42,569 nucleotides of DNA from positions 1-42,569 of IMG/VR virus record IMGVR_UViG_3300009528_000023, one strand, 5' to 3'. The notes below the pieces were generated by a model, which worked only from the letters and a program-made list of their open reading frames with translations, was not told the origin of the DNA and did no database searches. The position numbers and the translations under genes were made by a program. Shown here piece after piece: positions 7,621 to 25,705 of the stretch (positions are counted from its first letter, which is position 1; each line of letters starts with the position of its first letter). Origin of the DNA: a virus.

Positions 7621-7624
7621 TTTT

Positions 7625-8343: not shown

Positions 8344-8353
8344 CATTACATAA

Positions 8354-8376: not shown

Positions 8377-8385
8377 GTAAAGAGA

Positions 8386-8553: not shown

Positions 8554-8581
8554 AATACATATTATCAATAGGAGGGTAAAG

Positions 8582-9760: not shown

Positions 9761-10611
9761 AGGGCAGAAGTCTAGCACAGGAGATACGGCTTTGGGTAGC
9801 AGAGAATCCAGGTCGCAAGTTTGGCCTGAGCACGTTGGACAATGAACTAGGGATTTGGAGTACGGTTGATAAGAATAATCGTTGGCATATTATCCGCCGA
9901 TTGGTGGAAGAGGGGCTGGTTGAAAAGTATGGTGGTGGCTATCGGGTTATAGTTGATGGGCTTGTTACCCTTAACTGGAGGGCGGCAGATGAGAGTTTGA
10001 TATGGGATATTAAGTGGCCATTTGGGCTAGAGAACTATGTTGATATTCTCCCCAAGAATATTATTGTTGTGGCAGGCTCAAAGGATGCTGGCAAGACCGC
10101 CTTCCTACTCAATGTTGTAAGGCTGAATATGGACAAATACACCATACATTATTACTCAAGCGAGATGGGTGAGCTAGAATTAAAAAGAAGGTTACGTAAG
10201 TTTGAGGATACTGGTCTTGCCAAAATGGACAGTTGGAAATTCTATACCTATGAGAAGTCATTTGACTTTCAGGATGCGGTAAGTAAAAACCCAAATGATA
10301 TTCACATTATAGATTTCCTTGAAATACACAAAGACTTCTGGGAGGTCAGTGGTTTAATTTACCACATTTGGGATAAACTTGGTGGGATTGCCATTATAGC
10401 ATTGCAGAAGAACCCTGGTGCCGATATGGGGCTTGGTGGTGGGCGTAGCCTAGAAAAGGCAAGGCTTTATCTTACAATGGATATAAACAAACTCACTATT
10501 AAGGTGGGTAAGAATTGGGCACAGGAGACTGTCAACCCACGTGGTAAGAGTTGGACATTCCAGTTAGTCGGCGGTGCCAAATTTCTCAATATACAGGAGG
10601 CAAATGATTAA
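9745..10611 (+). CDS. DnaB/RecA-like replicative ATPase
   Basis: A 288-residue protein. Residues about 8-75 form a winged-helix-like domain (LRLWVAENPGRKF-type start, then HIIRRLVEEGLVEKYGGGY). Residues about 100-288 are a RecA-fold ATPase: Walker A GSKDAGKT at 111-118, SSEMGE at 138-143 (the DnaB SxEM motif), Walker B IHIIDFLE at 186-193, and ALQKNPGADMGLGGG at 219-233 in the place of the DnaB/RecA loop. It should bind single-stranded DNA and use ATP, acting as helicase, loader or recombinase. It lacks the DnaB N-terminal domain and is much shorter than a full DnaB. The start may be 9745 or 9754; both ATGs are part of the repeat array. Confidence 0.8.
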   Translation: MDKMDKGRSLAQEIRLWVAENPGRKFGLSTLDNELGIWSTVDKNNRWHIIRRLVEEGLVEKYGGGYRVIVDGLVTLNWRAADESLIWDIKWPFGLENYVDILPKNIIVVAGSKDAGKTAFLLNVVRLNMDKYTIHYYSSEMGELELKRRLRKFEDTGLAKMDSWKFYTYEKSFDFQDAVSKNPNDIHIIDFLEIHKDFWEVSGLIYHIWDKLGGIAIIALQKNPGADMGLGGGRSLEKARLYLTMDINKLTIKVGKNWAQETVNPRGKSWTFQLVGGAKFLNIQEAND

Positions 10612-10613
10612 AG

Positions 10614-10988
10614 ATGAAGAATAGAACAGGGGAATTGAGGGAACAATTGGAGATTATCTTGGGCAATTTAGTTACTAGAATAGCTACAGAGCATTATGAT
10701 TTTTATTATGCCGCAAAATTGGAAGCTGTGGGTTATGTTATTGAAGCCTGCAAGGAGAAGGGGATGGCTTTTGTAGTGGATAGGGAGTTGCCTTTATGCC
10801 CTGAAAAACCAGAATGTCAGCTAACAGATGGCGATATGGACAAAAGGGGGGTTAAGCCTCAGTACAGAAACGAATTCATATGCTATGTCGGGGACTTTCG
10901 CCACGCTTATATTACAGCAATCCAAGATATGATAATTTGGCACAGGGATAGTTTGGAGGAGATAGACATTGAAGAGAACACTGATTAA
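10614..10988 (+). CDS. Unknown early protein next to helicase
   Basis: A 124-residue protein starting three bases after the helicase-like gene. Helices at residues 5-50 are followed by a Cys-containing loop (LPLCPEKPECQLTDGD) and a C-terminal helix. It overlaps the next gene by 20 bases. A replication accessory role is suggested only by position. Confidence 0.6.
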   Translation: MKNRTGELREQLEIILGNLVTRIATEHYDFYYAAKLEAVGYVIEACKEKGMAFVVDRELPLCPEKPECQLTDGDMDKRGVKPQYRNEFICYVGDFRHAYITAIQDMIIWHRDSLEEIDIEENTD

Positions 10989-11400
10989 AAGGAAGAAGAG
11001 TAGGTTTGAGCCACACGATACACTGTGTAGTAAATATGTAAGGCTTATGTCCGGTGGATACTGCAAGAGGTGTTGGTTGAGGGGCAAGGGCGTGAAGGTA
11101 GATTGGCGTACTCTGCATTGGGCTCATTGTTTTAATAGAAATATACTGGCGACTAGGTGGGAATATGATAACTCCGCCCCGCTTTGTTGTGGTTGCCATA
11201 GGCATCTTGATTTGAACCACGAAGAAAAGCACGAGTTCTTTATGGGAATACTTGGTAGTAAAAGGTACAATGAGCTAAGGGAAATGGCTAAGCCTGGTGG
11301 TAAACCTGATAGGGACAAGATAAAGGCTGACCTTCAAGACAAGATTAGATTCTTGGAAGATGACAACGGTGGATGGATTTTTGTAGAAGATGATGACTGA
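10969..11400 (+). CDS. NinG-like HNH-type recombination protein
   Basis: A 143-residue basic protein beginning with TTG behind GGAGGAG. CSKYVRLMSGGYCKRCW, then LHWAHCFNR, a Thr-Arg-Trp-Glu-Tyr-Asp-Asn run and CCGCHRHLD make the order expected of NinG/Rap-type HNH folds (Cys pair, catalytic His, Asn, then Cys-x2-Cys-His). The C-terminal helix carries the usual LGSKRYNELREMA. NinG proteins of phage lambda type process recombination junctions. Nuclease activity here is inferred from the conserved residues. Confidence 0.7.
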   Translation: MKRTLIKRKKSRFEPHDTLCSKYVRLMSGGYCKRCWLRGKGVKVDWRTLHWAHCFNRNILATRWEYDNSAPLCCGCHRHLDLNHEEKHEFFMGILGSKRYNELREMAKPGGKPDRDKIKADLQDKIRFLEDDNGGWIFVEDDD

Positions 11401-11617
11401 AGACGAAAAGACGAAAGCCGTCAAGGGGTTCAAGCGACAACTAAATGGTGTAATGAGCGTGTTTCATTTCTATGGGCTACAAATATACATCCCAAATGCT
11501 ATTGAGGTGATCACTGAACTTGCCTTGTTACTACACAAGAGATTAAATGGGCAGGATATACCCGTAACATATGAACACGCTAACGAGAAGAAGCGACTAA
11601 GGGGTAAAGGAGGATAA
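11390..11617 (+). CDS. Small unknown early protein
   Basis: A 75-residue protein with a basic N-terminus, a hydrophobic strand-helix core (YIPNAIEVITELALLLHKRL) and a basic end (KKRLRGKGG). It overlaps the preceding gene; ATG 11393 is an alternative start. No family is recognised. Confidence 0.6.
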   Translation: MMTEDEKTKAVKGFKRQLNGVMSVFHFYGLQIYIPNAIEVITELALLLHKRLNGQDIPVTYEHANEKKRLRGKGG

Positions 11618-11618
11618 T

Positions 11619-11843
11619 ATGAGTTGGAGACCAAAAAACTGGGATAATCCCTACAGAGAGGATTACCACTACAGCGATAGACAAATCGCTTGGTGTCAGC
11701 ATAGGGTATTTGAAGCTGGTGCTGATGCGATGTTGTATGCAATTTTGGGAGCGCTACTGGATAGAAAAATTAAATTCAAAAGAAGTCGGGGTGTAGTAGA
11801 ACTTATTGTAGAGGAAGAAAATGAAATGCCTAAGACTGCTTGA
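11619..11843 (+). CDS. Conserved small phage protein
   Basis: A 74-residue protein starting SWRPKNWDNPY, followed by a helix with FEAGADAMLYAIL. The W-R-P-x-N-W-x-N-P start and the E-A-G-A-D-A-M helix are features I recognise from many small phage proteins of unknown function. AAAGGAGG lies upstream. Its end contains the -35 of the HNH promoter. Confidence 0.7.
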   Translation: MSWRPKNWDNPYREDYHYSDRQIAWCQHRVFEAGADAMLYAILGALLDRKIKFKRSRGVVELIVEEENEMPKTA

Positions 11844-11868
11844 CAATTCATCTTTACCCTGCTACAAT
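11840..11868 (+). promoter_or_regulatory. Promoter TTGACA-N17-TACAAT of the HNH gene
   Basis: TTGACA (11840-11845) and TACAAT (11863-11868) are 17 bases apart, near consensus. Transcription would begin about at ATG 11875, so the message would be leaderless or nearly so. Confidence 0.75.
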
Positions 11869-11874
11869 CTAAGC

Positions 11875-12225
11875 ATGAGAAAGAAATATCATGTTGGAAA
11901 AGACAACCCAATGTATGGGAGAAAGCATTCTGAGGCATCACTCCTAAAAATGAGACTGATTAAACTAGGAGAGAATAACCCATTTTGGCGTGGCGATAAG
12001 GCTGGGCGTGGCGCTCTTCACGATTGGCTGAAGTCGAGAAAGCCCAAAACTGTACTTTGTGAGAGATGTGGGGGTCGACCACCATTTGACCTTGCACTTA
12101 CGGGCTATAAATATACTCGTGATTTAAATGACTATCAATGGTTGTGCAGAAGGTGCCATATGGAAATTGATGGGCGCCTGGACAAGCTAATTAAGGTAAG
12201 TAAAGAGAGGAAAGCATCGTTGTGA
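11875..12225 (+). CDS. HNH homing endonuclease with NUMOD3-like motif
   Basis: A 116-residue protein from ATG 11875. MYGRKHSEASLLKMRLIKL (about residues 13-31) is the NUMOD3 DNA-binding helix found in homing endonucleases. ALHDWLKSRKPK then CERCG, LNDYQWLC and RRCHMEIDGR give an HNH-type zinc fold with two Cys-x2-Cys pairs. It carries its own strong promoter within the tail of the upstream gene, and no ribosome site is visible, as expected for a selfish gene inserted into an operon. A longer frame from 11821 is possible but would start inside the upstream gene and span the promoter. Confidence 0.8.
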   Translation: MRKKYHVGKDNPMYGRKHSEASLLKMRLIKLGENNPFWRGDKAGRGALHDWLKSRKPKTVLCERCGGRPPFDLALTGYKYTRDLNDYQWLCRRCHMEIDGRLDKLIKVSKERKASL

Positions 12226-12410
12226 GGTGTCCAAGTTGCAATATGGAAAGTATGCAACCTGAGTTAGACTTGGATGAGGGGAAAATCAGATGTTGTATGC
12301 TATGTGGTCACAGGGAGGATTTATATGGGCGTTCACTTGATGGTGTAAGACCGAGAGAATTTGAAAGAATATATGGTATGAAACTAAAACAACAACCGTA
12401 TGGACATTAA
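12222..12410 (+). CDS. Zinc-ribbon mini protein
   Basis: A 62-residue protein with CPSC at the start and CCMLCGH at about 24-30, a classic zinc ribbon. GTG 12222 overlaps the upstream TGA. The rest is charged (REFERIYGMKLKQQ). Many phage early regions hold such transcription-factor-like ribbons, but its target is unknown. Confidence 0.6.
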   Translation: MRCPSCNMESMQPELDLDEGKIRCCMLCGHREDLYGRSLDGVRPREFERIYGMKLKQQPYGH

Positions 12411-12422
12411 CGGAGGGAAAGA

Positions 12423-12608
12423 ATGAAAGTTTGGAAAGTAACTGAAGGCGATGGGGGAGGGAGTCCATTATACATAGATAGAATGGCAGTGTGGGATGAA
12501 ATCCAGGGTGGGCTAGAATATGATGAGATTGGCAACAAATACCTTATAGAAGTTGTAGATATGTCAGCTGATGTATTTTACAAACTACCAGAATGGGGTG
12601 GTTTTTAG
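12423..12608 (+). CDS. Small protein, paralogue of the leftward gene 18706-18897
   Basis: A 61-residue protein behind GGAGGG. It aligns over its length with the 63-residue product of 18706-18897: both begin MKV, have a Gly-Gly-Gly segment, and end with a D/E-MS-x2-x-F-x2-LPE-x2-G pattern. The two are therefore duplicated or separately acquired members of one family, now in opposite transcription units. Function is unknown. Confidence 0.65.
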   Translation: MKVWKVTEGDGGGSPLYIDRMAVWDEIQGGLEYDEIGNKYLIEVVDMSADVFYKLPEWGGF

Positions 12609-12649
12609 CCAGCGCTTAACAGTATTATATCAAGAGTTAGAAATACGAA

Positions 12650-12787
12650 ATGACAGATTGGCCGTTACTAGAGTGTATAGAGAATAGGGAAGAGTTTATA
12701 GAGAAACTAAAGAAACGTGGTATAATTAAGCGTGATTGGAAACCGCCCAAAAAGAAGAAGGGGGAAGGATGGAAGCTAAGGAAATAA
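12650..12787 (+). CDS. Small basic protein
   Basis: A 45-residue protein with an acidic first third and a very basic end (KPPKKKKGEGWKLRK). No good ribosome site precedes it, so expression is uncertain. It overlaps the start of the next gene. A TGG-TATAAT extended -10 lies inside it at 12718-12726 and could start transcription of the following genes. Confidence 0.4.
   Translation: MTDWPLLECIENREEFIEKLKKRGIIKRDWKPPKKKKGEGWKLRK
12718..12726 (+). promoter_or_regulatory. Possible extended -10 promoter inside a small gene
   Basis: TGG-TATAAT at 12718-12726 is identical to the element at 7233-7241. It would start transcription about 40 bases before the ATG at 12769. Confidence 0.4.
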
Positions 12788-12930
12788 CACTTGAGGAAAT
12801 AGTAGTTAAGATTTGGGGGATGGCACAAGCTAGTATAGAGCAAGGGAACCCACCGTATGAGGATAATGTGGTTCGTCAGGCAACGCTAGAGTGGGCTTTG
12901 GGGGAGCTTAAAAAGAAAGCCAAGATATAA
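12769..12930 (+). CDS. Small helical protein
   Basis: A 53-residue protein, mainly one or two helices (MEAKEITLEEIVVKIWGMAQ), with a basic end. ATG 12769 after GGGGGAAGG is favoured over an upstream frame. Function is unknown. Confidence 0.5.
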   Translation: MEAKEITLEEIVVKIWGMAQASIEQGNPPYEDNVVRQATLEWALGELKKKAKI

Positions 12931-12962
12931 AGGTGATAAATCTATATAAAAAGGAGTATGGA

Positions 12963-13223
12963 ATGGCTAAGATTGATTGCAATGTAGATTGGAATGGGTA
13001 TTTTAAGGGTAAGGAATTTGCAGATATATCAACCGAGCTTTATAGAGAATATGTTTTCCCTATGGGTGAGAAGGTTCGGATTGAACGCCCCCAATGGCTT
13101 AATGTTTCAAGTTCAGGTGGTCATCGCATTATAAGCCTAGATAGATATTCGCACTATATACCGTGTAAGTGGATTCATCTTTATTGGGAAGTCAAAAGCG
13201 GTAGCCCACACTTCGTAAGGTGA
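12963..13223 (+). CDS. Small unknown early protein
   Basis: An 86-residue protein. ATG 12963 follows AAAAGGAG at the right distance; an upstream GTG in frame is less likely. It is beta-rich with many aromatic residues (NVDWNGYFKGKEF; HYIPCKWIHLYW). No family is recognised. Confidence 0.6.
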   Translation: MAKIDCNVDWNGYFKGKEFADISTELYREYVFPMGEKVRIERPQWLNVSSSGGHRIISLDRYSHYIPCKWIHLYWEVKSGSPHFVR

Positions 13224-13245
13224 TAAATGGCGGAAGTGAGATTCA

Positions 13246-13271
13246 ATAATATGTAGTGCGCCATTTGGGGG
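13246..13271 (+). repeat. TAGTGCGCC intergenic element, copy 3
   Basis: ATATGTAGTGCGCCATTTGG continuing into GGG matches the copy at 7592 almost exactly and shares the core with 8354-8376. It again lies directly before a small gene (ATG 13278). Confidence 0.6.
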
Positions 13272-13277
13272 TGAAGG

Positions 13278-13451
13278 ATGAAAAGGATTTGGTGCAAGGT
13301 AGTCGGCTATGAGAGCTACCGATTTTATAAAGCACACGGAGATAGTATTATATTGAAGTTGGAATGTGGACACGAAGTAGGTCGTAAGGCTTCGGAGTGC
13401 TACACTATGCCCAAAAAGGTAATATGCAAACAATGCGAAATGCGGGGTTGA
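13278..13451 (+). CDS. Small zinc-binding protein
   Basis: A 57-residue protein with LECGHEVGRK near residue 30 and CKQCE at about 50, a Cys-Gly-His plus Cys-x2-Cys zinc site typical of very small phage treble-clef proteins. Its ribosome site GGGGGTGAAGG is part of the repeated intergenic element. Function is unknown. Confidence 0.65.
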   Translation: MKRIWCKVVGYESYRFYKAHGDSIILKLECGHEVGRKASECYTMPKKVICKQCEMRG

Positions 13452-13500
13452 TTTACATAGCCAAAAGGTGTAGTCAATCAGTAATGGAGTTAAATATCTA

Positions 13501-13959
13501 ATGGCGGAAGTAGAATGCAGGGATTGTTATGACTTCAAGGCTCGTAGATATAGGTATTTGAAAGAGTGCCTTGGCGGCGACTATTATACTTATGGAGATA
13601 TATTCTACTGTCGCTGGCAGATAATATGGGTGAGAGAACACAAGGAGAAGTTTAAGTGTGGCGTTTGGCCTGATATGCCTGGTGTTATAACATCTGAGTC
13701 TATCAAGAAGAAGCAGGCCGAAGCCCATTTTGTGAGGGCGTGTATCACTCACGCTGATGTGGACTCCAGGCTAATAAAGGCAAAGGGTGATGGCAAGTTA
13801 TTAGACAAAGAGATACAATTAGGAACGCCTATAAATGAGATGGATGATGAGGCTAAGTCGGCATTACGCTGGTGTGAAGGATGGGGAAAGAAAAAGGGAA
13901 CTTATGCAGAGTGGAAGAGAAAGAAAACCTATAGACAAAGGAGGAGAAATGAAAGCTAA
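13501..13959 (+). CDS. Conserved phage protein with N-terminal Cys motif
   Basis: A 152-residue protein. CRDCYDFKAR, then YCRWQIIWVREHKEKFKCG and WPDMPGVIT form a pattern I associate with small phage regulatory-type proteins. The C-terminal half is helical and very basic (LRWCEGWGKKKGTYAEWKRKK) and could bind DNA. A GGAG lies ten bases upstream of the ATG. It may be an early or late transcription regulator, but this is inference. Confidence 0.6.
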   Translation: MAEVECRDCYDFKARRYRYLKECLGGDYYTYGDIFYCRWQIIWVREHKEKFKCGVWPDMPGVITSESIKKKQAEAHFVRACITHADVDSRLIKAKGDGKLLDKEIQLGTPINEMDDEAKSALRWCEGWGKKKGTYAEWKRKKTYRQRRRNES

Positions 13960-14269
13960 GGATGTTAAGTGGTGTCCTCAACACGGCTATCCCTTGCCTT
14001 GCTACAAGTGTGGTATGCCACTATCGCAGGTTTCACAGAAGGAAATATTTAAGGCTGGCAAAAAGGCAGGGCAAGAAGATGTAATCAAGCGGATTGCTGC
14101 TGGTGAGGAAATTCTAATTGATAGTCAGAATGTTAGATACTACCAACTCGGAGGCGAGGAGTGGCAGAAGACGGCACAAACCCAAGCTGAAATATCCTTT
14201 AAAATGGGTTACAATCAAGCACTTGAAGATTATAAGGTTGACATCACCACTTCTGGCGTGGTAAAATAA
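13949..14269 (+). CDS. Zinc-finger-containing small protein
   Basis: A 106-residue protein from ATG 13949 behind AAAGGAGG; an upstream frame from 13835 lies within the previous gene and is rejected. WCPQHGYPLPCYKCGMPLSQ at 8-27 is a zinc-binding segment (Cys-x2-His, then Cys-x2-Cys). The rest is helical and contains two copies of a short motif around FKAGKKAGQ and FKMGYNQAL. Function is unknown. Confidence 0.6.
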   Translation: MKAKDVKWCPQHGYPLPCYKCGMPLSQVSQKEIFKAGKKAGQEDVIKRIAAGEEILIDSQNVRYYQLGGEEWQKTAQTQAEISFKMGYNQALEDYKVDITTSGVVK

Positions 14270-14287
14270 GAGAAAAGGAGGTGGTAT

Positions 14288-14926
14288 GTGCCAGAGTTAG
14301 GGGAGCGCATCAGGGGAGATATATTACTATCAATGAAGGGTAGGTCTAACGATTATTATGTATGGTATCAATGCCCTGAGTGTCTTATTGAAAGATGGAT
14401 TTTACAGTGGAAAACGAAACTCCCAAACTTCACTGGACTTTGTCAGGTGTGTAATGCTCGCAAGAATAATAACCGAGCGAAGGCAATAGGGGAGAAGCAC
14501 CCTCGTTGGAATGGTGGGCAAACAATAAGCAGGGGATATGTTTATATCTCCAATGACAGGCATCCAACCTGCACATCAAAGGGTTATGTGAAAAGGGCTA
14601 GGCTTGTATTGGAAGAAAGGCTGGGGCGATACCTTTTACCCGATTGCGTTCCACACCATCTAAATCACATAAGGAATGATGATCGGCCTAGTAATCTGAT
14701 TGAACTTACCAAGTCTCAGCATACAATTCTGCACGCCTTTGAACGCAGGCTTATAGCTGGGGCTAAATATCTTGGGATAAAGGAAGTGGTGGATTATATC
14801 AACAAACATCTTAGACCATTCTTTGTTGCATCCACGGAAAGGGAGTGGCAAACCTACATTGAGGGAGTGGGGTACAGAAATGTCCCCCCAATAATAGGAG
14901 GTGATACAAAATCGTGCCTAATTTGA
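14288..14926 (+). CDS. HNH homing endonuclease (HNH_3 type)
   Basis: A 212-residue protein with GTG start behind AAAAGGAGGTGG. Residues about 28-60 hold CPECL and CQVCN (zinc). Residues about 85-140 carry the HNH_3 arrangement: ISRGYVYI, a Lys-Arg-Ala-Arg-Leu-Val helix, then HHLNHIRNDDRPSNLIEL with the catalytic His-His/Asn signature and a closing Gln-His-x5-His. It should cut double-stranded DNA at a long site and spread itself. It is the second such gene in this region. Confidence 0.85.
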   Translation: MPELGERIRGDILLSMKGRSNDYYVWYQCPECLIERWILQWKTKLPNFTGLCQVCNARKNNNRAKAIGEKHPRWNGGQTISRGYVYISNDRHPTCTSKGYVKRARLVLEERLGRYLLPDCVPHHLNHIRNDDRPSNLIELTKSQHTILHAFERRLIAGAKYLGIKEVVDYINKHLRPFFVASTEREWQTYIEGVGYRNVPPIIGGDTKSCLI

Positions 14927-15006
14927 CAATGGGTATAGAGAAATGGTATAAGGGGTTAGGAATAATAAAACTATGCCCAAACACCTGCTGGGGGGTGAAC
15001 CCTTAG
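14914..15006 (+). CDS. Possible 30-residue leader peptide
   Basis: GTG 14914 sits after AGGAGGTG and opens a 30-codon frame ending at TAG 15004-15006. The stop lies in the loop of the hairpin 14997-15013, and the downstream ATG follows 12 bases later. The placement resembles leader peptides that control a hairpin by ribosome position. A promoter sequence overlaps the frame, so the coding reading may be accidental. Confidence 0.35.
   Translation: MPNLTMGIEKWYKGLGIIKLCPNTCWGVNP
14923..14952 (+). promoter_or_regulatory. Promoter TTGACA-N18-TATAAG with extended -10
   Basis: TTGACA (14923-14928), TGG at 14944-14946 and TATAAG (14947-14952) form a plausible promoter just after the HNH gene. It would give the phosphoesterase and the downstream membrane gene a separate transcript with a leader of about 60 bases. 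Confidence 0.6.
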
Positions 15007-15013
15007 CGGGTTC
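14997..15013 (+). promoter_or_regulatory. Hairpin directly before the phosphoesterase start
   Basis: GAACCC (14997-15002) pairs with GGGTTC (15008-15013) around a five-base loop, five bases before ATG 15019. No ribosome site lies between, so the hairpin probably affects initiation. Confidence 0.5.
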
Positions 15014-15018
15014 TTATT

Positions 15019-15837
15019 ATGACAGAGAAAAGTTTTGAGGACAGGATAATTGCACTAGACCTGCCCGAATGTAGTAAGGTTTATATAGTGCCACTTGCCG
15101 ACTTTCATTTGGGGGCGGTGGGTGTCAAACTAGACGTTATCAGGGGATATATTGATTGGATAAAGCAACGAGACAATGCCCGTACTCTCCTGAATGGCGA
15201 CCTTCTGAATTGTGCCGGTATCTATTCGGGGCCTTCTATCTTTGAAGACTTGGTAACACCTGACACAGCTTACGCTCAGTTAAGGGAATTGCTTAAACCT
15301 ATTAAGGACAAGATACTTTTTATTACACTGGGTAACCATGAGGAAAAGATATTCCGTCAGGTAGGGTGTGATTATATGTCCCGCCTTGCCTATGACTTGG
15401 GTGATGTACCTTACAGACCTAACGGTGGGATGGCTGGTATCAGGCTTCATAACAGTGGGCATCGTGCTATGCTGTGGATGTATGCCACTCACGGGTGGGG
15501 TGGTGCTAGGACTATCGGGGCTAAGGTTAATAAGGTAGAGGAATTAGCTAAGGCGGTTGGTGGTTGCCATCTATATATCCTCAGCCATGATCATACGCAG
15601 AATGTTCACAGATTAAATCCGAGAGTTCCGCCAAAGAGTGGGATCACATTCCATCGGCAGATGTATCAACAGACAGAACGCAAACTCTTGGTAAATACTG
15701 GTGGCTTTTATGATTATGTGGGGTATATCAGGCGGAGAGGTTACGCCCCACAAGATATAGGGACACCTAGAATACTAGCAGAATTAAGGCGCAGTAGACA
15801 AGAAGACTGGCATCTTGATTTACACAGCACAATTTAA
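15019..15837 (+). CDS. Calcineurin-like metallophosphoesterase
   Basis: A 272-residue protein with all metallophosphoesterase motifs in order: D28-x-H30 (ADFHLG), G60-D61 with N64, G105-N106-H107-E108, H158 (ATHGWGG) and H190-x-H192 (SHDHTQ). The family binds two metal ions and cleaves phosphodiesters or phosphomonoesters; substrates range from DNA ends to cyclic nucleotides. The substrate cannot be read from sequence. It has its own promoter after an HNH gene and is followed at 15891 by a PQ-loop membrane protein. Phages use such enzymes in recombination (SbcD type) or possibly in removing signalling nucleotides. It lacks the long C-terminal part of SbcD. Confidence 0.85.
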   Translation: MTEKSFEDRIIALDLPECSKVYIVPLADFHLGAVGVKLDVIRGYIDWIKQRDNARTLLNGDLLNCAGIYSGPSIFEDLVTPDTAYAQLRELLKPIKDKILFITLGNHEEKIFRQVGCDYMSRLAYDLGDVPYRPNGGMAGIRLHNSGHRAMLWMYATHGWGGARTIGAKVNKVEELAKAVGGCHLYILSHDHTQNVHRLNPRVPPKSGITFHRQMYQQTERKLLVNTGGFYDYVGYIRRRGYAPQDIGTPRILAELRRSRQEDWHLDLHSTI

Positions 15838-15890
15838 TATTAAGGGTGAGGCCGACATCAAGTAAGAGATTAATTGGTTGGCGGGATTAA

Positions 15891-16148
15891 GTGGGCGATA
15901 TAATAGGCTGGATAGGTGTGGGTTTTGGGCTGTTGGTGGCCCCACCTCAACTCGTTAAGATACTACGCACTAAAAGCCTGAATGATATATCCCTTTGGAC
16001 ATACACCTTTCTTGTCTGTGCCTTAATGTGTTACTTAGCTCACGCTGTATATATCCAGGCGGTTGTATTTATAGTAGCCCAGTCCTTTGGGGTAATATTG
16101 AACGGGGTGATTTTATTTCTCTTGGTTAGGAAGCGATGGCTGAAGTAG
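15891..16148 (+). CDS. PQ-loop (SemiSWEET-like) membrane protein
   Basis: An 85-residue protein with three membrane helices at about 3-19, 36-54 and 58-80. PPQLVKILRTKSLNDISLWT at 18-37 is the hallmark PQ-loop motif (Pro19-Gln20 and the following Lys-Ser ... Ile-Ser). A single three-helix unit of this size is the SemiSWEET form, which in bacteria forms a dimer that moves sugars across the inner membrane. The third helix has the family's FGVILNGVILFLL pattern. The start is GTG with only a weak GCGGGA site. Finding it in a phage is unusual. A sugar-transport role is inferred from family; lysosomal-type PQ proteins carry other solutes. Confidence 0.8.
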   Translation: MGDIIGWIGVGFGLLVAPPQLVKILRTKSLNDISLWTYTFLVCALMCYLAHAVYIQAVVFIVAQSFGVILNGVILFLLVRKRWLK

Positions 16149-16393
16149 AATTATATGAACAGTTAAGAACAGTTGAAATAATCTGGCTTGATGCTCGCTT
16201 TAGCTGTAGTACTTGGATGGATATTGAAGAGGCCAAAAAGATAACGTTAGCCGAAACACAAACGAGGGGAACAATCCTCTGTGAAGATGAAGGCTCAATA
16301 ACTCTTTATATGAACATTAACAAAAGCGATAATGATGTAGCCCACTGTGTTACAATCCCCAAGGGCTGTATCAAGAGCATCAAGGACATATAA
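16136..16393 (+). CDS. Small protein of a duplicated GCIKSI family
   Basis: An 85-residue protein overlapping the PQ-loop gene by 13 bases. It ends CVTIPKGCIKSIKDI, and the 78-residue product of 21226-21462 ends INIPRGCIKSIRRLE. Both have a Trp-Leu/Asp-Asp N-terminal strand and similar spacing, so they are paralogues. The compact beta-rich pattern suggests an Sm- or SH3-like barrel. Function is unknown. It is the last gene of the rightward early region. Confidence 0.65.
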   Translation: MAEVELYEQLRTVEIIWLDARFSCSTWMDIEEAKKITLAETQTRGTILCEDEGSITLYMNINKSDNDVAHCVTIPKGCIKSIKDI

Positions 16394-16401
16394 TACCAGC
16401 A

Positions 16402-16665
16402 TTAAGTTTTACTATCTGCTATGGCTACATATCCCTCAAGGTATAGAGACTTTAGTAATCCGTAAAGTTTTGATGATACCTCTGCTTCGTTGCCAGCTAC
16501 ACCATATAGCCTATCACAAATGTGTTTTAGTGCCTCATACATTTTAGGTGCTGACTTATGTAGTGGGCAGTAAGTTAATAGTGGTGGCGAATTCGGCTCC
16601 AAGAAAATAGAACAGCCACATGGTAGTTCCCATTCACCCTGCGTTATAACTTCCATATACTTCAT
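16402..16665 (-). CDS. Small Cys/His phage protein
   Basis: An 87-residue protein, last gene of the leftward block, converging on the early region. ATG 16665 follows AGGAGAAG; an upstream frame is rejected. CGCSIFL, then YCPLHKSAPKMYEAL form a pattern common in phage mini proteins (Cys-x-Cys, then Y-C-P-x-H-K-x-A-P-x-M). One zinc site is likely. No terminator was seen between the convergent ends at 16393 and 16402. Confidence 0.65.
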   Translation of the reverse strand: MKYMEVITQGEWELPCGCSIFLEPNSPPLLTYCPLHKSAPKMYEALKHICDRLYGVAGNEAEVSSKLYGLLKSLYLEGYVAIADSKT

Positions 16666-16666
16666 T

Positions 16667-16843
16667 TTACTTCTCCTGTGCTGGTGGGTATCTCTTATCC
16701 AACGCTTTAACCAATAAGTCGCTTCGTTCCAGTAGTTCCTGAACATCAACTATATTGTCGGTAATTTCCACTGTGCAATCAAAAGTATGAATACCCTTAA
16801 CTGATGTGCTTACACCCACTCGTTGCCTGATTGCTTTCTCCAT
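16667..16843 (-). CDS. Small unknown protein
   Basis: A 58-residue protein from ATG 16843 behind GAGGGGGA. It begins with a basic strand (EKAIRQRVGVSTSVKG) and ends with a charged helix. It lies one base from the end of the upstream gene. No family is recognised. Confidence 0.55.
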   Translation of the reverse strand: MEKAIRQRVGVSTSVKGIHTFDCTVEITDNIVDVQELLERSDLLVKALDKRYPPAQEK

Positions 16844-16844
16844 T

Positions 16845-17159
16845 TTAATCCCCCTCATCGTTCATAAACATTACTTTTACTTCGGCTATCCTGCCTTCAT
16901 CCCCACGCTTAATATAGACTGGATATACACCATCGCCATAACCCGTGGAGACACTAACGCCAAGACCACGATGACCCAGCTTATAATTCCACTGTGCAAC
17001 GCCCCTTTTCTCAATCTTCTGTAGTTTGTTACAGAACTCATCCCAAGTATTAGCGGGGTGTTCGTCAACGTCTGGAGTTACGCAGTAGCAAGGGTCGCCT
17101 ATCCAGCATAATCCAGCGTCAACCCCTATATGTCCAACGAGTTCCCATTTTTCTTCCAT
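16845..17159 (-). CDS. Conserved phage protein with DPCY/GYGDG motifs
   Basis: A 104-residue protein, the largest in the leftward block. GHIGVDAGLCWIGDPCYCV and STGYGDGVYPVYI are the conserved motifs of a beta-sandwich family (DUF4241-like) found in phages and bacteria. The G-Y-G-D-G-x-Y-P-V motif is well kept. The family's activity is unknown. ATG 17159 overlaps the stop of the upstream mini gene, with AAGGAGG inside that gene. Confidence 0.7.
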   Translation of the reverse strand: MEEKWELVGHIGVDAGLCWIGDPCYCVTPDVDEHPANTWDEFCNKLQKIEKRGVAQWNYKLGHRGLGVSVSTGYGDGVYPVYIKRGDEGRIAEVKVMFMNDEGD

Positions 17160-17242
17160 TACTTCCTCCTTAGTATTCTTTTAATTAGACCAGGCTTTCT
17201 TTTAAGCCACATTGATTTACCCCGTATATATACATCTTCCAT
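17159..17242 (-). CDS. Very small basic protein
   Basis: A 27-residue basic peptide (MEDVYIRGKSMWLKRKPGLI and a Lys/Arg-rich end) with a good GGAGG site. It overlaps the next start, so its translation may mainly serve coupling. Function is unknown. Confidence 0.45.
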   Translation of the reverse strand: MEDVYIRGKSMWLKRKPGLIKRILRRK

Positions 17243-17245
17243 AGA

Positions 17246-17416
17246 TTAAGCCTCCTTCACTTCTACAACTTTCAATTTAACTATCTTGCCCTCGCCTAAT
17301 TCTGTTCTCTTCTTAAAGCCATCAGGCGAACACATTTCTACTAAGAACTTCTTGTTGTAAACCATATAATAGTCATCTTTCTCATACTCATGCCACGCAT
17401 AAAGCTCACCTTTCAT
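17246..17416 (-). CDS. Small unknown protein
   Basis: A 56-residue protein preceded by AAGGAGGGGATG. It is beta-rich in the middle and Lys/Glu-rich at the end (KIVKLKVVEVKEA). It resembles small barrel proteins but no family is recognised. Confidence 0.55.
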   Translation of the reverse strand: MKGELYAWHEYEKDDYYMVYNKKFLVEMCSPDGFKKRTELGEGKIVKLKVVEVKEA

Positions 17417-17456
17417 ATCATCCCCTCCTTATTTAGTTAGATAACAGTAACCTAGT

Positions 17457-17630
17457 TTACTTGTCCTCATTGGGAACATTCTCCAACACCCACTTCCCTA
17501 GTTCTGTCAGGCGTCTATATAGTGGGGATAAATAGGTGCAATTAAATTTCCTCTCTACTATGACAGCTAGGATTAGTTCCTTATTGGTGGTTTCCCTAAG
17601 CTCCTCCGTTGTCCATCTGGGGCGTCCCAT
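17457..17630 (-). CDS. Small basic helix-turn-helix-like protein
   Basis: A 57-residue protein from ATG 17630 behind TAGGAGG; a longer frame is rejected. It has a helix TTEELRETTNKELILAVIVE and a short C-terminal helix. The basic GRPRW start could contact DNA. A small regulator is possible, but the evidence is only the helix pattern. Confidence 0.5.
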   Translation of the reverse strand: MGRPRWTTEELRETTNKELILAVIVERKFNCTYLSPLYRRLTELGKWVLENVPNEDK

Positions 17631-17640
17631 TTCGCACCTC

Positions 17641-17727
17641 CTATTTCGTAATATATTTATACCCTGCAAACATCAGTATTATAAACAGTCCAAAGACTAG
17701 ACTAAAGTATATTATTAATATTGTCAT
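17641..17727 (-). CDS. Micro membrane protein
   Basis: A 28-residue peptide that is almost entirely one membrane helix (ILIIYFSLVFGLFIILMFAG). Its ATG overlaps the upstream TGA, so it is coupled. Function is unknown. Confidence 0.5.
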   Translation of the reverse strand: MTILIIYFSLVFGLFIILMFAGYKYITK

Positions 17728-17861
17728 TTTATACCCCAAACATTTACATTGGCGACCTTAATGCCTAATTCTTTTAGGGCATCAATTATCTTATCCTCTA
17801 AAGCATACCTGTCACCCTCGCTAAGGTCATTTTCTGTTGTTACTGTTATTGTGAGTTTCAT
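17724..17861 (-). CDS. Small unknown protein
   Basis: A 45-residue alpha/beta protein (KLTITVTTENDLSEGDRYAL) preceded by GAGGAGG. Two strands around a helix give a ferredoxin-like impression. No family is recognised. Confidence 0.5.
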   Translation of the reverse strand: MKLTITVTTENDLSEGDRYALEDKIIDALKELGIKVANVNVWGIK

Positions 17862-17895
17862 TTTACCTTAACCTCCTCAGTGCTTTACCAGCAGG

Positions 17896-18084
17896 CTAAG
17901 CTTCCGTTTCAGTTTCCCCTAGTAGCAGTACTCTGTCGTGAAGGTTTGGGTATGAACGCATAGCTCTAACTCGTTTTAGGGCTTCAATGCCGAGCTGATG
18001 GGCATCGTTTCTTTCGGCATCGGTATAATCAGGGTTATGGTCATTATGAATGGTAAGGATTTTAATAGCTTTGTCTATGGTCAT
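17896..18084 (-). CDS. Conserved small phage protein
   Basis: A 62-residue protein from ATG 18084. MTIDKAIKILTIHNDHNPDY and QLGIEALKRVRAMR follow a pattern I recognise from many phage genomes (M-T-I-x2-A-I-x-I-L, then A-x-Q-L-G-I-E-A-L-K). It is helical. A longer frame from 18156 overlaps the upstream gene and is rejected. Function is unknown. Confidence 0.65.
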   Translation of the reverse strand: MTIDKAIKILTIHNDHNPDYTDAERNDAHQLGIEALKRVRAMRSYPNLHDRVLLLGETETEA

Positions 18085-18088
18085 TGTT

Positions 18089-18223
18089 TTACCTAACTCT
18101 GCCTTTCCGTTGTCTTTCCCATTCAGCCTGCCCCTTGGCGGCTCTGGCATTGTCACATTCCCTAAGTGCTTTGTCTATCTCAGCAGTGCAATAAAATAAA
18201 CTCCATTCTTTCCGTCTTGCCAT
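18089..18223 (-). CDS. Small basic protein
   Basis: A 44-residue basic helical protein (ARRKEWSLFYCTAEIDKAL). It is preceded by a weak GGGGG site and by promoter element A. Function is unknown. Confidence 0.5.
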   Translation of the reverse strand: MARRKEWSLFYCTAEIDKALRECDNARAAKGQAEWERQRKGRVR

Positions 18224-18238
18224 TGTTTTGCCCCCTTC

Positions 18239-18266
18239 ATTTGATACTACAATCATACCATATTAG
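18239..18266 (-). promoter_or_regulatory. Leftward promoter element A
   Basis: On the minus strand: TGG-TATGAT, five bases, then TATCAAAT, followed by the ribosome site of the gene at 18223. The same order and spacing occur at 18494 and 18660. Confidence 0.6.
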
Positions 18267-18279
18267 ATTAGCCTTAAGT

Positions 18280-18474
18280 TTAGGCTTGTTTGTTGACATT
18301 GCCCCTGACTATCAGCTTGGTATTTACCCAAACCTGGTAATCTCCAGCTTTGTCAAGATAGGTGTGGATATGACCCTGCCAAGTTGCTAGGTGTGAGTCA
18401 ATTTCTCGGTGTGCAAGGCGGTGTATAGTTCCAGCATGATGCCCATAGTTGAGATACCCTATTAAAGCTGCCAC
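18280..18474 (-). CDS. Small His-rich protein
   Basis: A 64-residue protein from GTG 18474 behind AAAGGAGG. The longer open frame to 18516 would run through promoter element B and is rejected. It holds a His-rich part (YGHHAGTIHRLAHREIDSHL), which might bind metal. No family is recognised. Confidence 0.5.
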   Translation of the reverse strand: MAALIGYLNYGHHAGTIHRLAHREIDSHLATWQGHIHTYLDKAGDYQVWVNTKLIVRGNVNKQA

Positions 18475-18493
18475 TGAACTTATCCTCCTTTCT

Positions 18494-18516
18494 ATTTGAT
18501 ACCCTAAGCATACCAC
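18494..18516 (-). promoter_or_regulatory. Leftward promoter element B
   Basis: Minus strand TGG-TATGCT, five bases, TATCAAAT, then AAAGGAGG. It matches elements A and C in spacing. Confidence 0.6.
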
Positions 18517-18523
18517 AAGCCAA

Positions 18524-18643
18524 TTAGTGCCTTTTAGTTCTGGCTTGTTCCACTTTAAACTCTGCCAATTCTGTTAATCCTCTAGTTTCTAGTTCTTGCA
18601 TTTCTGTAAGGGTTCTGCCTTTTCTTTCCTTCTTTTGTTTCAT
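18524..18643 (-). CDS. Very small basic helical protein
   Basis: A 39-residue peptide (KQKKERKGRTLTEMQELETR), all helical and basic, preceded by GGGGAGG and promoter element C. Function is unknown. Confidence 0.5.
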   Translation of the reverse strand: MKQKKERKGRTLTEMQELETRGLTELAEFKVEQARTKRH

Positions 18644-18659
18644 TGACCTTGCCTCCCCT

Positions 18660-18690
18660 ATTTGATAATACAAGCATACCATATTAGATT
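18660..18690 (-). promoter_or_regulatory. Leftward promoter element C
   Basis: Minus strand TGG-TATGCT, five bases, TATCAAAT, then GGGGAGG. The upstream bases (AATCTAATA) are also shared with element A. Confidence 0.6.
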
Positions 18691-18705
18691 TGGCTTAATA
18701 GTGCC

Positions 18706-18897
18706 TTACCAGCCTATAAATTCTGGTAGATTATTGAATGTCTCTTTGGACATCTCTTCTACCTTTATTTGCCACTCTTCACCCTCTTCGTTATATCGCA
18801 TCTGTGTTATTTCCTCCAACAAAGCTGGGCAGTTGGTGGCATCATAAACACAATTCGTACCACCACCCGTTATATGGGTAAGCCTTAATACTTTCAT
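18706..18897 (-). CDS. Small protein, paralogue of 12423-12608
   Basis: A 63-residue protein from ATG 18897 behind AGGGAGCGAGG. It shares an N-terminal MKV, a Gly-Gly-Gly turn and a C-terminal MSKETFNNLPE with the rightward gene 12423-12608. Function is unknown. Confidence 0.6.
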   Translation of the reverse strand: MKVLRLTHITGGGTNCVYDATNCPALLEEITQMRYNEEGEEWQIKVEEMSKETFNNLPEFIGW

Positions 18898-18929
18898 TGC
18901 CTCGCTCCCTTCCTTTGAATTTGCCTTAA

Positions 18930-19175
18930 TTATACTGGGCAATCACAAGGATGCCCATATTCTATATGATAAGACTGGTGGTGGGTGGTGTATGCCCGTA
19001 ACCTATCAATGGTGTGACCGCCTTGTTGCTTCCTTTCACAGCCCATATAATGGTAGCCATTGCGTCCAAATTTCTCGTCATTACCATTGACTAACTTAAC
19101 CAGTGCTTCAGGAACTTCAATACTTTCTCCCTTGGTGACTGGTTGCAACCTAGTTACTTGTTCAGTGTAGTTCAT
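18930..19175 (-). CDS. Small unknown protein, first leftward gene
   Basis: An 81-residue protein preceded by AGGAGGG. The N-terminal half is helical and charged. The C-terminal half is rich in His, Tyr and Cys (THHQSYHIEYGHPCDCPV), a likely metal site. It is the first gene of the leftward block, read from promoter element D. Confidence 0.6.
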   Translation of the reverse strand: MNYTEQVTRLQPVTKGESIEVPEALVKLVNGNDEKFGRNGYHYMGCERKQQGGHTIDRLRAYTTHHQSYHIEYGHPCDCPV

Positions 19176-19188
19176 TTTACCCTCCTAT

Positions 19189-19215
19189 ATTTGATACTAT
19201 CATTAAATCATACCC
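19189..19215 (-). promoter_or_regulatory. Leftward promoter element D
   Basis: Minus strand TATGAT, ten bases, TATCAAAT, then AGGAGGG. The spacing differs from elements A-C, so it is the least certain member. Confidence 0.45.
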
Positions 19216-19450
19216 AAACACCCATTACAATAGCAGGTGAACTAAGATAGAGCAAGGGATAGATAAGCAAAGCAGTATAATGGAAGGCAACTAGCCCATA
19301 CTCTATAGGGGTCACTAAATTGGGCAAAAGCTCTCGGATACTAGTTATTTGAGTGTGGAATAACTATCGGGGGAGCCACTCCCCAATGGATTGTTAGTCA
19401 AGTAGCCATCGCTACAGCTCTGCTGTACCAAATATATAATAAGGTAAGAT
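19216..19450. other. Divergent non-coding region with several hairpins
   Basis: No gene is visible between the leftward block and the ATG at 19451. TAGTTATT (19342-19349) pairs with AATAACTA (19359-19366). GGGGAG (19370-19375) pairs with CTCCCC (19379-19384). GTAGC (19402-19406) pairs with GCTAC (19411-19415), and TACAGC (19413-19418) pairs with GCTGTA (19422-19427); the last two share bases and exclude each other. TATAAT at 19276 could be a -10 without a good -35. The place next to a small-terminase-like gene also makes a packaging site possible. Confidence 0.5.
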
Positions 19451-19900
19451 ATGTTAGAAGAAACTATTAAGAGAATAAAGGAAACCCCTTTGCTTAACAT
19501 AAGTACTGCTGAAAGCCAATTCAGCCTATCTGATTTAGCTATACTGCCCAAGAACCAAAAGGGGGGCCGTAAGAAGCAAACTCATTACAGGACCGAAGCC
19601 ATACAAAGGCTACACGAAAATGTACTCAATGCTGTAAGGGTAATAGGCAGGGCAGTCAAGGGGAAGAAGGACATCTCCTGGCTACAGTTCCAGGCTGCCA
19701 CATACAATATAGATCAGGTAGTAGGGAAGTCTAAGGTAAGGATTGAAGCTGACATAGGGGAGAAGTCTTTTGACCGGCTATTAAAGATGGCCTTGGAGTC
19801 ACAGAGGCAATTACCGGAAGGCACGATAGAAGGAGAGTATAAGGAGATAGATGTACAAGAACAAAGAAGCACAGAGGGAAGCAGTAAGGAAAGCAGTTAA
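19451..19900 (+). CDS. Possible small terminase subunit
   Basis: A 149-residue protein. Residues about 20-45 are basic with GGRKKQTHYR. A helical core follows (HENVLNAVRVIGRAVKGKKD), then the segment NIDQVVGKSKVRIEADIGEK before a polar tail. The order 'charged linker, helix, [IL]D-x2-[VL]GK[SP]K, acidic end' is common in phage small-terminase-like proteins, which bind the packaging site. It lies some 2.5 kb from the large terminase, with small genes between, which is unusual. The evidence is pattern only; an unrelated DNA-binding protein is possible. Confidence 0.45.
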   Translation: MLEETIKRIKETPLLNISTAESQFSLSDLAILPKNQKGGRKKQTHYRTEAIQRLHENVLNAVRVIGRAVKGKKDISWLQFQAATYNIDQVVGKSKVRIEADIGEKSFDRLLKMALESQRQLPEGTIEGEYKEIDVQEQRSTEGSSKESS

Positions 19901-20105
19901 TAAACATCGCAAGGGTATTACATCGGGTATTACAAATGGGGGTATTACAGACAAAGGCGTTACGAAACCTGTAATACTATCAGATGGTCAACTATGGTAC
20001 CCGAACAACTATGGCTATCATCCGAAGGAATGTCAGTGCAATGCTCATAATGACAGGACCTGGATGACTGACACCGATTACCTGGGGATGATCACTCCTT
20101 TATAG
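19851..20105 (+). CDS. Small protein with repeated Gly-Ile-Thr segment
   Basis: An 84-residue protein overlapping the end of the previous gene by 50 bases, behind AAGGAG. It starts MYKNKEAQREAVRKAVNKHR (a helix pattern seen in many small phage proteins). Then comes GITSGITNGGITDKGVTK, in which the first three Gly-Ile-Thr units are encoded by near-identical GGGTATTACA repeats. A Cys-x-Cys near the end may bind metal. Function is unknown. Confidence 0.6.
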   Translation: MYKNKEAQREAVRKAVNKHRKGITSGITNGGITDKGVTKPVILSDGQLWYPNNYGYHPKECQCNAHNDRTWMTDTDYLGMITPL

Positions 20106-20128
20106 TGCGAACCCAGGTAATCCTTATA

Positions 20129-20140
20129 ACGTATATACGT
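20129..20140. promoter_or_regulatory. Perfect 12-base palindrome, possible operator
   Basis: ACGTATATACGT lies in the 190-base gene-free stretch 20106-20296. The rest of that stretch holds a weak inverted repeat GGGGT/ACCCC near 20215-20240 and the promoter at 20269. No gene is visible. Confidence 0.4.
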
Positions 20141-20268
20141 AGGGGATAGGCAGGAGTTAAACCTTCCCAAGAAAACGCCCAGGTTGAGCTGAGGGGTAGG
20201 CTTAATCTTACGGGGTATAGAGTATATATAGACCCCTGTTCCACGAATTATGAAAAACGAATTGCCTG

Positions 20269-20277
20269 TGTTATAAT
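20269..20277 (+). promoter_or_regulatory. Extended -10 promoter
   Basis: TGT-TATAAT at 20269-20277 is followed by CAGGAGG and the ATG at 20297. No convincing -35 is seen, as is usual for extended -10 promoters. Confidence 0.6.
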
Positions 20278-20296
20278 AAGCAACAGGAGGATAGGC

Positions 20297-20506
20297 ATGA
20301 GGATAACTGAGGGAGCCAGGCGGAAAAGGAGAGTAATTTACAAAGCCCCCAGGAGGGAGGAAATACGCAGGCCGAAGGCACCCCCACCCAAACCCATTCA
20401 GAGGGTAACTACTGGCAAAGCTGGGCCTCTCTCTCCATTATACTTAGCTGGAAAGGGGTCAGGTTTACCTGTTCATATTTGGAGAAAGATTAAAAGGCAG
20501 AGATAG
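20297..20506 (+). CDS. Small very basic protein
   Basis: A 69-residue protein rich in Arg, Lys and Pro (GARRKRRVIYKAPRREEIRR). It is probably disordered in part and able to bind nucleic acid. It is the first gene behind the promoter at 20269. Function is unknown. Confidence 0.6.
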   Translation: MRITEGARRKRRVIYKAPRREEIRRPKAPPPKPIQRVTTGKAGPLSPLYLAGKGSGLPVHIWRKIKRQR

Positions 20507-20563
20507 AATAACCCCTGTTATATGATATACTAATATTGAATTGTGTAGAAAGGAGGGAGGAAG

Positions 20564-20731
20564 ATGGAGAAGGAAGTAGCGGTAAGGGAATGGTGTCTTG
20601 AGAGGGCGATGTTATATCTAAAAGACAACAATATTGACCCTGACCGCATAATGGACACTGCCGATATGTTTGAAGTGTATATTAACACTGGCAAAGTCCC
20701 CAAGCGTATAACAGTCAGCAACCCAAAGTGA
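20564..20731 (+). CDS. Small unknown protein
   Basis: A 55-residue helical protein (MEKEVAVREWCLERAMLYLK) preceded by AAAGGAGGGAGG. It ends with a beta-like VPKRITVSNPK. No family is recognised. Confidence 0.6.
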   Translation: MEKEVAVREWCLERAMLYLKDNNIDPDRIMDTADMFEVYINTGKVPKRITVSNPK

Positions 20732-20988: not shown

Positions 20989-21186
20989 ATGGCAAGGATT
21001 CAAAATGGTGGGAGGAGACCTTTAAGAACCAAATCAGTCTTAGGGCAGGCTGGCAGGCCAGCGACTCCGAAGTTTGATGCTTTAAGAGGGCTCAAGGGGA
21101 AACCTGACAAGACTATAATTGATGTCCTGGTAGCCAGGAGGAAGGCCGTAGAGGATGCGATAAGGATTTTTAGACAGAGGAAATAG
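20989..21186 (+). CDS. Small basic protein
   Basis: A 65-residue protein with a Gly/Arg/Pro-rich start (MARIQNGGRRPLRTKSVLGQ) and a C-terminal basic helix. It is preceded by GGAGG. The stop is at the left edge of a repeated element. Function is unknown. Confidence 0.6.
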   Translation: MARIQNGGRRPLRTKSVLGQAGRPATPKFDALRGLKGKPDKTIIDVLVARRKAVEDAIRIFRQRK

Positions 21187-21220
21187 GGGTGCAAATCCCT
21201 AGTCACAGTTATATAGGGGG
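21186..21220 (+). repeat. 35-base repeat, copy 1
   Basis: The core CAAATCCCTAGTCACAGTTA recurs with few changes at 21626-21660. Each copy lies directly before a small gene and ends in a purine-rich ribosome site. A shorter inverted version (ATAACTGTGATGGGA) lies at 21461-21475. Confidence 0.65.
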
Positions 21221-21225
21221 ATGAT

Positions 21226-21462
21226 ATGAGGAAATTACCCTTACTTTTGGTTGAATGGGATGATTGTGTAACCGATTCCCGTTGGCAAGATGTTAATACG
21301 GAAAGCGGAATCCATACAAACCCAGCTTACTCTGTGGGCTGGCGGGTAAAATCCAACAAGAGATATTTAGTCATATCTCCAATGCGTGATTCTACTGACA
21401 AATGCGATGACCGCATAAACATACCGAGGGGTTGTATTAAAAGTATAAGGCGATTAGAATAA
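21226..21462 (+). CDS. Small protein of the GCIKSI family
   Basis: A 78-residue protein, paralogue of the product of 16136-16393: both end in a [IV]-x-IP-[KR]-GCIKSI-[KR] motif. It is flanked by a repeated element upstream and an inverted partial copy at its stop codon. Function is unknown. Confidence 0.65.
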   Translation: MRKLPLLLVEWDDCVTDSRWQDVNTESGIHTNPAYSVGWRVKSNKRYLVISPMRDSTDKCDDRINIPRGCIKSIRRLE

Positions 21463-21482: not shown

Positions 21483-21641
21483 ATGAAGATAACTAAAAGT
21501 GGGTTTCGTTTTGGTAGATTTATGTTAGATATATCCTATCGTCATAGAACGATATTTTGGGCAACTGGCTATCATGAGTATTATATCCGCCTTGGTATTC
21601 CACCCAAAGCAACAAAGCATAATACAGGTTCAAGTCCCTAG
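21483..21641 (+). CDS. Small basic beta-rich protein
   Basis: A 52-residue protein (MKITKSGFRFGRFMLDISYR) lying between repeat copies; its last codons are part of copy 2. AGGTAATG gives a weak ribosome site. Function is unknown. Confidence 0.5.
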   Translation: MKITKSGFRFGRFMLDISYRHRTIFWATGYHEYYIRLGIPPKATKHNTGSSP

Positions 21642-21660
21642 TCACGGTTATATAAAGGAG
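21626..21660 (+). repeat. 35-base repeat, copy 2
   Basis: AGGTTCAAGTCCCTAGTCAC followed by GGTTATATAAAGGAG; the same core as 21186-21220, again directly before a small gene. Confidence 0.65.
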
Positions 21661-25542: not shown

Positions 25543-25705
25543 GGCAACAGTAGATGCGAAAATATCAAAATTGAATAAAGAAATAGACGCAATTTTGAAT
25601 CAGCAAACCCCACAAGGCGGGAATGCAAGATCGATGAATAGTTTAAGGGCTTTTATAAACAGAATGAAGGGGGTAAAGCGTGGCGGTAGTCCAACCCCTC
25701 GGTAA
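25535..25705 (+). CDS. Small protein between portal and giant gene
   Basis: A 56-residue charged helical protein (KATVDAKISKLNKEIDAIL) that overlaps the portal end and the start of the giant gene. The AAGGGGG ribosome site of the giant gene lies within it. It may be a small head-assembly factor; no family is recognised. Confidence 0.5.
   Translation: MSKATVDAKISKLNKEIDAILNQQTPQGGNARSMNSLRAFINRMKGVKRGGSPTPR

Follow-up and report, generated by a model that had tools for sequence, protein, structure and literature searches.

Likely promoter elements with an invariant start-region octamer precede mini genes in a leftward block of a phage without a cultured close relative

Among the Herelleviridae (early promoters of Kayvirus 515A1 and Listeria phage CKA15) and in the host-takeover module of phage SPO1, many sigma-70/A promoters lie ahead of short groups of small genes, which combine strong promoters with strong ribosome sites (PMC6873191). 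The early promoters of Kayvirus are characterized by a TRTGN extension, a 17-bp spacer and a further 5-bp spacer after the -10 hexamer that is followed by a preferred T (PMC7698491). Promoter-bearing intergenic repeats that stand in one orientation before non-structural genes were described as SAS (start-associated sequence) and ESAS in cluster K mycobacteriophages and as repeats in Microbacterium phages (PMC3203893, PMC11373665, PMC7302621). A comparable arrangement is reported here for the virus record IMGVR_UViG_3300009528_000023, which was analyzed over its whole length of 42,569 bases (the window). A block of mini genes runs leftward on the minus strand at positions 16402-19175, and four sites in and directly before it (P1-P4) share one layout: TGN and a hexamer with 4-5 matches to TATAAT, exactly five variable nucleotides, the octamer TATCAAAT, a ribosome site and a start codon.

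The initial annotation had proposed that three sites (18239, 18494, and 18660) share the element, and the pattern GGTATGMT-N5-TATCAAAT was indeed found without mismatches at all three, which lie on the minus strand, and at no other position of the window. When up to three mismatches were allowed, five sites were found in the window compared with 0.98 expected, a number that was reached in 1 out of 100 shuffles. P2 (18644-18698) consists of TGG and TATGCT (18678-18673), the octamer (18667-18660) and a ribosome site; P3 (18475-18523) of TGG and TATGCT (18512-18507), the octamer (18501-18494), a ribosome site and a GTG start; and P4 (18224-18286) of TGG and TATGAT (18257-18252), the octamer (18246-18239) and a ribosome site. 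A fourth site at 19189 had been described as similar, and the likeness is closer than that: P1 (19176-19230) reads TGA-TTTAAT-GATAG-TATCAAAT (TGA and TTTAAT at 19207-19202, octamer at 19196-19189) and thereby keeps the extended -10, the 5-nucleotide spacing and the octamer. P1 alone also carries a -35-like hexamer, TTGTAA (19230-19225), 17 bp upstream of the -10. A TGN followed by a hexamer with at least 5/6 matches occurs at ~0.07% of positions by background; since this register is rare by chance and the GGTATGMT pattern had been drawn up without P1, P1 supports a promoter reading. The relaxed motif T[AT]NNNT-N5-TAT[AC]A[AG][AG][AT] matched nine positions in the window, and only at P1-P4 was it followed by a ribosome site and a start. 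The octamer is invariant in the four copies and the -10 is variable, and the three largest gaps of the block are the sites of P2-P4. A possible degenerate fifth copy (17643-17666, minus strand) lies inside an open reading frame of 28 amino acids and reads CAGGG-TATAAA-TATAT-TACGAAAT, followed by AGGAGG and a start at 17630; its score of 9.5 makes it the next best minus-strand site after 40494, and with random maxima of 12-15 it is not significant alone.

The four copies are most probably (at roughly 70%) reiterated promoters of the host RNA polymerase with sigma-70/A, with transcription starting inside TATCAAAT. The polymerase and its main sigma factor would recognize the extended -10 (TGN-TATGMT or TTTAAT), and the start would most likely fall on the A of TATCAAAT, 7 nucleotides after the -10. 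Each transcript would then begin with AUCAAAU and lead through an unstructured leader of ~20-25 nucleotides straight to a strong ribosome site, behind which the mini gene follows. The octamer would serve as an initiation signal, or an initially transcribed signal, for conserved host machinery, and the block would represent an early-type region of small accessory proteins arranged in about four or five short overlapping units with a promoter each. As in the systems above, several promoter-like sequences of the same type were found on one strand, one for each short group of small genes, and the 5-nucleotide register after the -10 is that of the Kayvirus early promoters. The differences from the Herelleviridae and SPO1 are the lack of a -35 hexamer in P2-P4 and the invariant start octamer of the window.

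The same layout was found in unrelated phages, mostly ahead of small genes, and three of these phages (G032, G037, and G038) are uncultured. The exact element was present in 98 stretches across IMG/VR, with a single copy in each of the 80 that were listed. Records with several copies were reached by loosening the -10 and were thus selected through the motif: TANNNT-N5-TATCAAAT occurs six times in G032 and five times in G029 (each on one strand), five times in G037 and four times in G038, counted over whole records, and the reversed pattern had no match in any of the four. In these motif-selected records TTGAC mostly stands 17 bp upstream and a ribosome site and an open reading frame follow, often directly. 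Over a compared length of 10.8 kb, G029 is identical to Lactococcus phage WRP3. Named phages were surveyed next, and Brochothrix phage A9 was picked for this beforehand without reference to the motif. A9 carries four copies, all of the form TTGAC-N17-TATACT, N5, TATCAAAT, ribosome site and ATG (TATACT-TAGGK-TATCAAAT), and the copy TATACT-TAGGG-TATCAAAT differs from P3 at one base of 19. Among its 280 permutations, TATCAAAT ranked first at this register in A9 (4 occurrences vs a mean of 0.23), as it did in the motif-found G032, G038, WRP3, and G037. The genes behind the A9 copies encode 121-258 amino acids and are small rather than mini. The Audreyjarvisvirus phages (949-like; WRP3, phiL47, and AM1, L529-L531) resemble the window phage in a leftward block of small hypothetical genes, which contains many near-consensus TTGACA-N17-TATAAT promoters with a start-region consensus of TATCAARW over 26 promoters. 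Both A9 and these phages differ from P2-P4 by TTGACW 17 bp upstream of the -10, and their comparison with the window phage is by motif only. P1-P4 share with A9, WRP3, and G037 a start region TAT(A/C)ARRW five nucleotides after the -10. A looser TATAA/TATAAGAT start region was seen in A511 and EF24C; SPO1 has too few promoters for a judgement, and its single TATCAAAT, in the vicinity of gene 60, lacks a proper -10. The octamer was found in 0 out of 135 promoters of the control loci, which displayed a weak T6/A7 preference only, and a literature search for TATCAAAT gave nothing relevant among the papers listed. The claim that TATCAAAT represents the first transcribed bases gains from its identical register behind canonical promoters of unrelated phages, and the fixed register, the association with starts and this recurrence together support the proposal of a promoter-leader unit before short groups of mini genes.

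That a ribosome site and a start directly follow every copy, that the leaders of P1-P4 are open and that two relatives of the window phage (G010 and G012) bear other repeated start-associated sequences might suggest that the conserved sequence works at the RNA level, as a leader for translation or stability, with the promoter-like bases being incidental. This is very unlikely, since the octamer keeps a fixed distance to the -10 and a variable distance (13-19 nucleotides) to the start codon, which ties it to transcription rather than to translation; the ribosome site itself is variable, and in other phages the octamer accompanies canonical promoters. The published repeats differ in form: the SAS consists of 13 conserved bp at the ribosome site, with a distance of 3-9 bp to the start, and the ESAS is an inverted repeat of 15-17 bp with a -35 and a -10, whereas the window element contains no inverted repeat of at least 12 nucleotides. 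Alternatively, since P2 and P4 share 50 nucleotides at 84% identity, intergenic regions could have been recently duplicated or recombined with one another; the repeats would then be relics, and the octamer would have no selected role. P1 and P3, however, share only the functional core, and the same register of the octamer in unrelated phages makes this origin exceedingly improbable.

Several observations weigh against host promoters at P1-P4. P2-P4 lack a -35 hexamer and have a mediocre -10 (TATGCT), and TTGACW 17 bp upstream of the -10 was found at none of the copies, with a partial match in P1 only; the class assignment is therefore to extended -10 promoters and not to the canonical form. 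Searches with the capsid returned 80 loci, one of which is a close relative (G001) and the others of which share 60-70% identity, and 27 of the records were searched whole for the element: it was not found in these 27 capsid relatives apart from one chance match with two mismatches, and an unbiased count showed no enrichment of TATCAAAT upstream of their starts (rank 67 out of 280 permutations). The contrast with a control octamer (TACTAAAT) is modest and suggestive only, with 10 out of 112 start-associated occurrences compared with 20 out of 120 for TATCAAAT, and 3 compared with 15 in combination with TATAAT.

Since P2-P4 have no -35, an activator or a phage sigma factor might be involved. 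Late promoters of this form, with an extended -10 and no -35, are known from Kayvirus 515A1 and Listeria phage CKA15 (PMC7698491, PMC12282133), and a sigma factor encoded by the phage could by analogy serve P2-P4, as in the late class of the Herelleviridae. This has a very low probability: the element was not found before structural genes and does not have the form TGYTATATTA, P1 has a -35-like hexamer, the -10 sequences are TATGMT and not TATATTA, the octamer accompanies -35-bearing promoters in A9 and others, and no sigma factor was identified. An unlikely but less remote explanation is that a phage regulator, either a repressor or an activator like MotA that stands in for the missing -35, binds TATCAAAT, perhaps together with the TTAAGSC box that P2 and P4 carry near -30, and that the four promoters make up a phage-specific regulon. 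Such a site would fit an octamer that is better conserved than the -10, the missing -35 of P2-P4 and the 50 nucleotides common to P2 and P4, and published start-associated repeats of phages are suspected to be regulator sites (PMC3203893, PMC11373665). A private operator does not explain the same octamer and register in unrelated phages of different hosts, which makes the host machinery the better candidate; the octamer also lacks dyad symmetry, and none of the scanned proteins was identified as a regulator. A signal that is read by conserved host machinery would explain why unrelated phages share the octamer. Whether TATCAAAT (in the wider form TATMARRW), at positions -1 to +7, is in addition an unnamed initially transcribed element on which unrelated phages have converged in the promoters of their small-gene blocks is a tentative proposal, with the odds rather against it.

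Two other assignments were rejected. An archaeal promoter was considered because the best match of the terminase is a Methanosarcinales virus, but the upstream AT stretch is common only to P2 and P4, a bacterial extended -10 is found in all four copies, and the promoters of the capsid relatives are of the TTGACA...TATAAT type, often with TG. If TATCAAAT were itself a -10 or a box similar to those of T4 late promoters, transcription would begin ~7 nucleotides downstream, within the ribosome site or beyond it. Modest hairpins precede P2-P4 (z = -1.95, -1.87, and -2.02, compared with -0.38 at P1), among them AGCCT/AGGCT at 18286-18270 in P4; they are weak, have AGCC/GGCT arms and were noticed post hoc, and Rfam gave no credible match. 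They recall the PeSL cassettes of T4-type phages, in which a promoter and a stem-loop lie between small genes (PMC4503421), and differ from them in being weak, dissimilar and lacking at P1.

The relatives of the window phage show which parts of the arrangement are shared. The terminase and the genes of 81 and 87 amino acids led to no close relative but G001, in which 11635-20585 is missing. Three block genes (87, 58, and 62 amino acids) have homologues in G002, G005, G009, G012, and G003, in other orders and contexts and without a copy of the element. These homologues, together with a plus-strand paralogue of the 63-amino-acid gene, indicate from sequence comparison that block genes move. The suggested recurrence of the element in related phages was not seen in the 27 capsid relatives; as a layout, the element recurs in unrelated phages. 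G010 (L234:1-4100) contains ~10 small genes, each behind a start-associated GAAAGTGAGGCACCAAAATG or a variant of it, in an SAS-like series of its own, as well as a TTGACA-N16-TATTAT promoter. G012 has a start-associated AAACTTGGAGGTA before three genes and, by eye, a TTGACA-N18-TATGAT-like sequence ahead of its block. Judged by these sequences, the architecture recurs in G010 and G012 and the sequence of the repeat does not. A search for the host with the capsid in GTDB genomes gave one weak match (37%).

All 14 leftward mini genes of the initial annotation (27-104 amino acids) are present as open reading frames of the lengths given there, and their own frame scores best by codon usage in 12 of them. 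The four genes directly behind P1-P4 had no convincing homologue in the loci searched. The gene behind P1 (18930-19175, 81 amino acids) is an orphan and one of the two exceptions in codon usage, and it is followed by the gene of 63 amino acids (18706-18897), whose plus-strand paralogue lies at 12423-12608 (36% identity, E = 1e-7). For the gene of 39 amino acids behind P2 (18524-18643), taken from the open reading frame list, no homologue was found in the fetched loci. The gene behind P3 (18280-18474, 64 amino acids, GTG start) is an orphan, and the gene behind P4 (18089-18223, 44 amino acids) is marginally similar to the C-terminal end of 13501-13959 (E = 0.007). Further downstream are genes of 62 amino acids (17896-18084, homologues in G003 and G009) and 45 amino acids (17724-17861, weak match in G002), the hydrophobic open reading frame of 28 amino acids (17641-17727, the second exception in codon usage), and three that rest on the open reading frame list and codon usage, with 57 (17457-17630), 56 (17246-17416) and 27 amino acids (17159-17242). 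The gene of 104 amino acids (16845-17159) is the only block gene with an above-cut-off match to a named family (DUF4241/phrog_5209), and its homologues in Streptomyces phages are likewise on the minus strand. The block ends with genes of 58 amino acids (16667-16843, homologue in G005 with 56%) and 87 amino acids (16402-16665, partial homologues in G002, G009, and G012). Overall, the block proteins are mostly orphans, and the host-takeover or anti-defence island with members gained and lost as cassettes, which the initial annotation suggested, is a conjectural reading of the block.

All recognizable genes outside the block are rightward, with a divergent region at 19176-19450 and rightward genes from 19451. 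G001 covers 1-11634 and 20586-42569 of the window, joined across the window ends and hence without the block, at 100% identity except for 28 mismatches in a 5.5-kb piece that reaches the right end. The window ends (1-161 and 42409-42569) overlap imperfectly and G001 runs across both. Because G001 joins the ends, a circular or permuted genome of ~42.4 kb is probable, in which strains vary at the junction, and with the other recognizable genes rightward the block would form the leftward arm of the divergent region. Two small plus-strand genes that flank the block region (16136-16393 and 21226-21462) have similar C-termini when read by eye (IPKGCIKSIKD and IPRGCIKSIRR) and may be paralogues. Also on the plus strand, a repeat AATA..GGTKCAARTCCCTAGTCACRGTTATAT that resembles a tRNA T-arm (21182-21211 and 21621-21650, 25 out of 30 identical) lies shortly 5' of two small genes, and ARAGORN found no tRNA; a ATATTATATGTAGTGCGCCCTTTGGGG-like repeat is located at ~7589 and ~13241 (24 out of 30 identical), its first copy just before the gene at 7604; and the presumed portal gene is separated from the presumed capsid gene by a single open reading frame of 1804 amino acids without a PHROG match (25680-31094).

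Reiterated promoters of small phage genes are a known kind of arrangement, which the block of the window joins as a further case, and the noteworthy part is the start octamer that is shared across phages. The analysis points out a block of mini genes, together with the units in which it is likely transcribed, in a phage without a cultured close relative, and the succession of a -10, five nucleotides, TATCAAAT and a ribosome site provides a sequence handle for locating blocks of small phage genes, a class that includes host-shutoff proteins in other phages. If the octamer is an initially transcribed element, it would set the start site, promoter escape or transcript fate under the host polymerase, and in the window phage it would go with promoters without a -35; if it does have its own function, a reporter in Lactococcus or Bacillus could readily test this. 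From its distribution, the shared layout seems to be a common means by which phages turn on their small genes.

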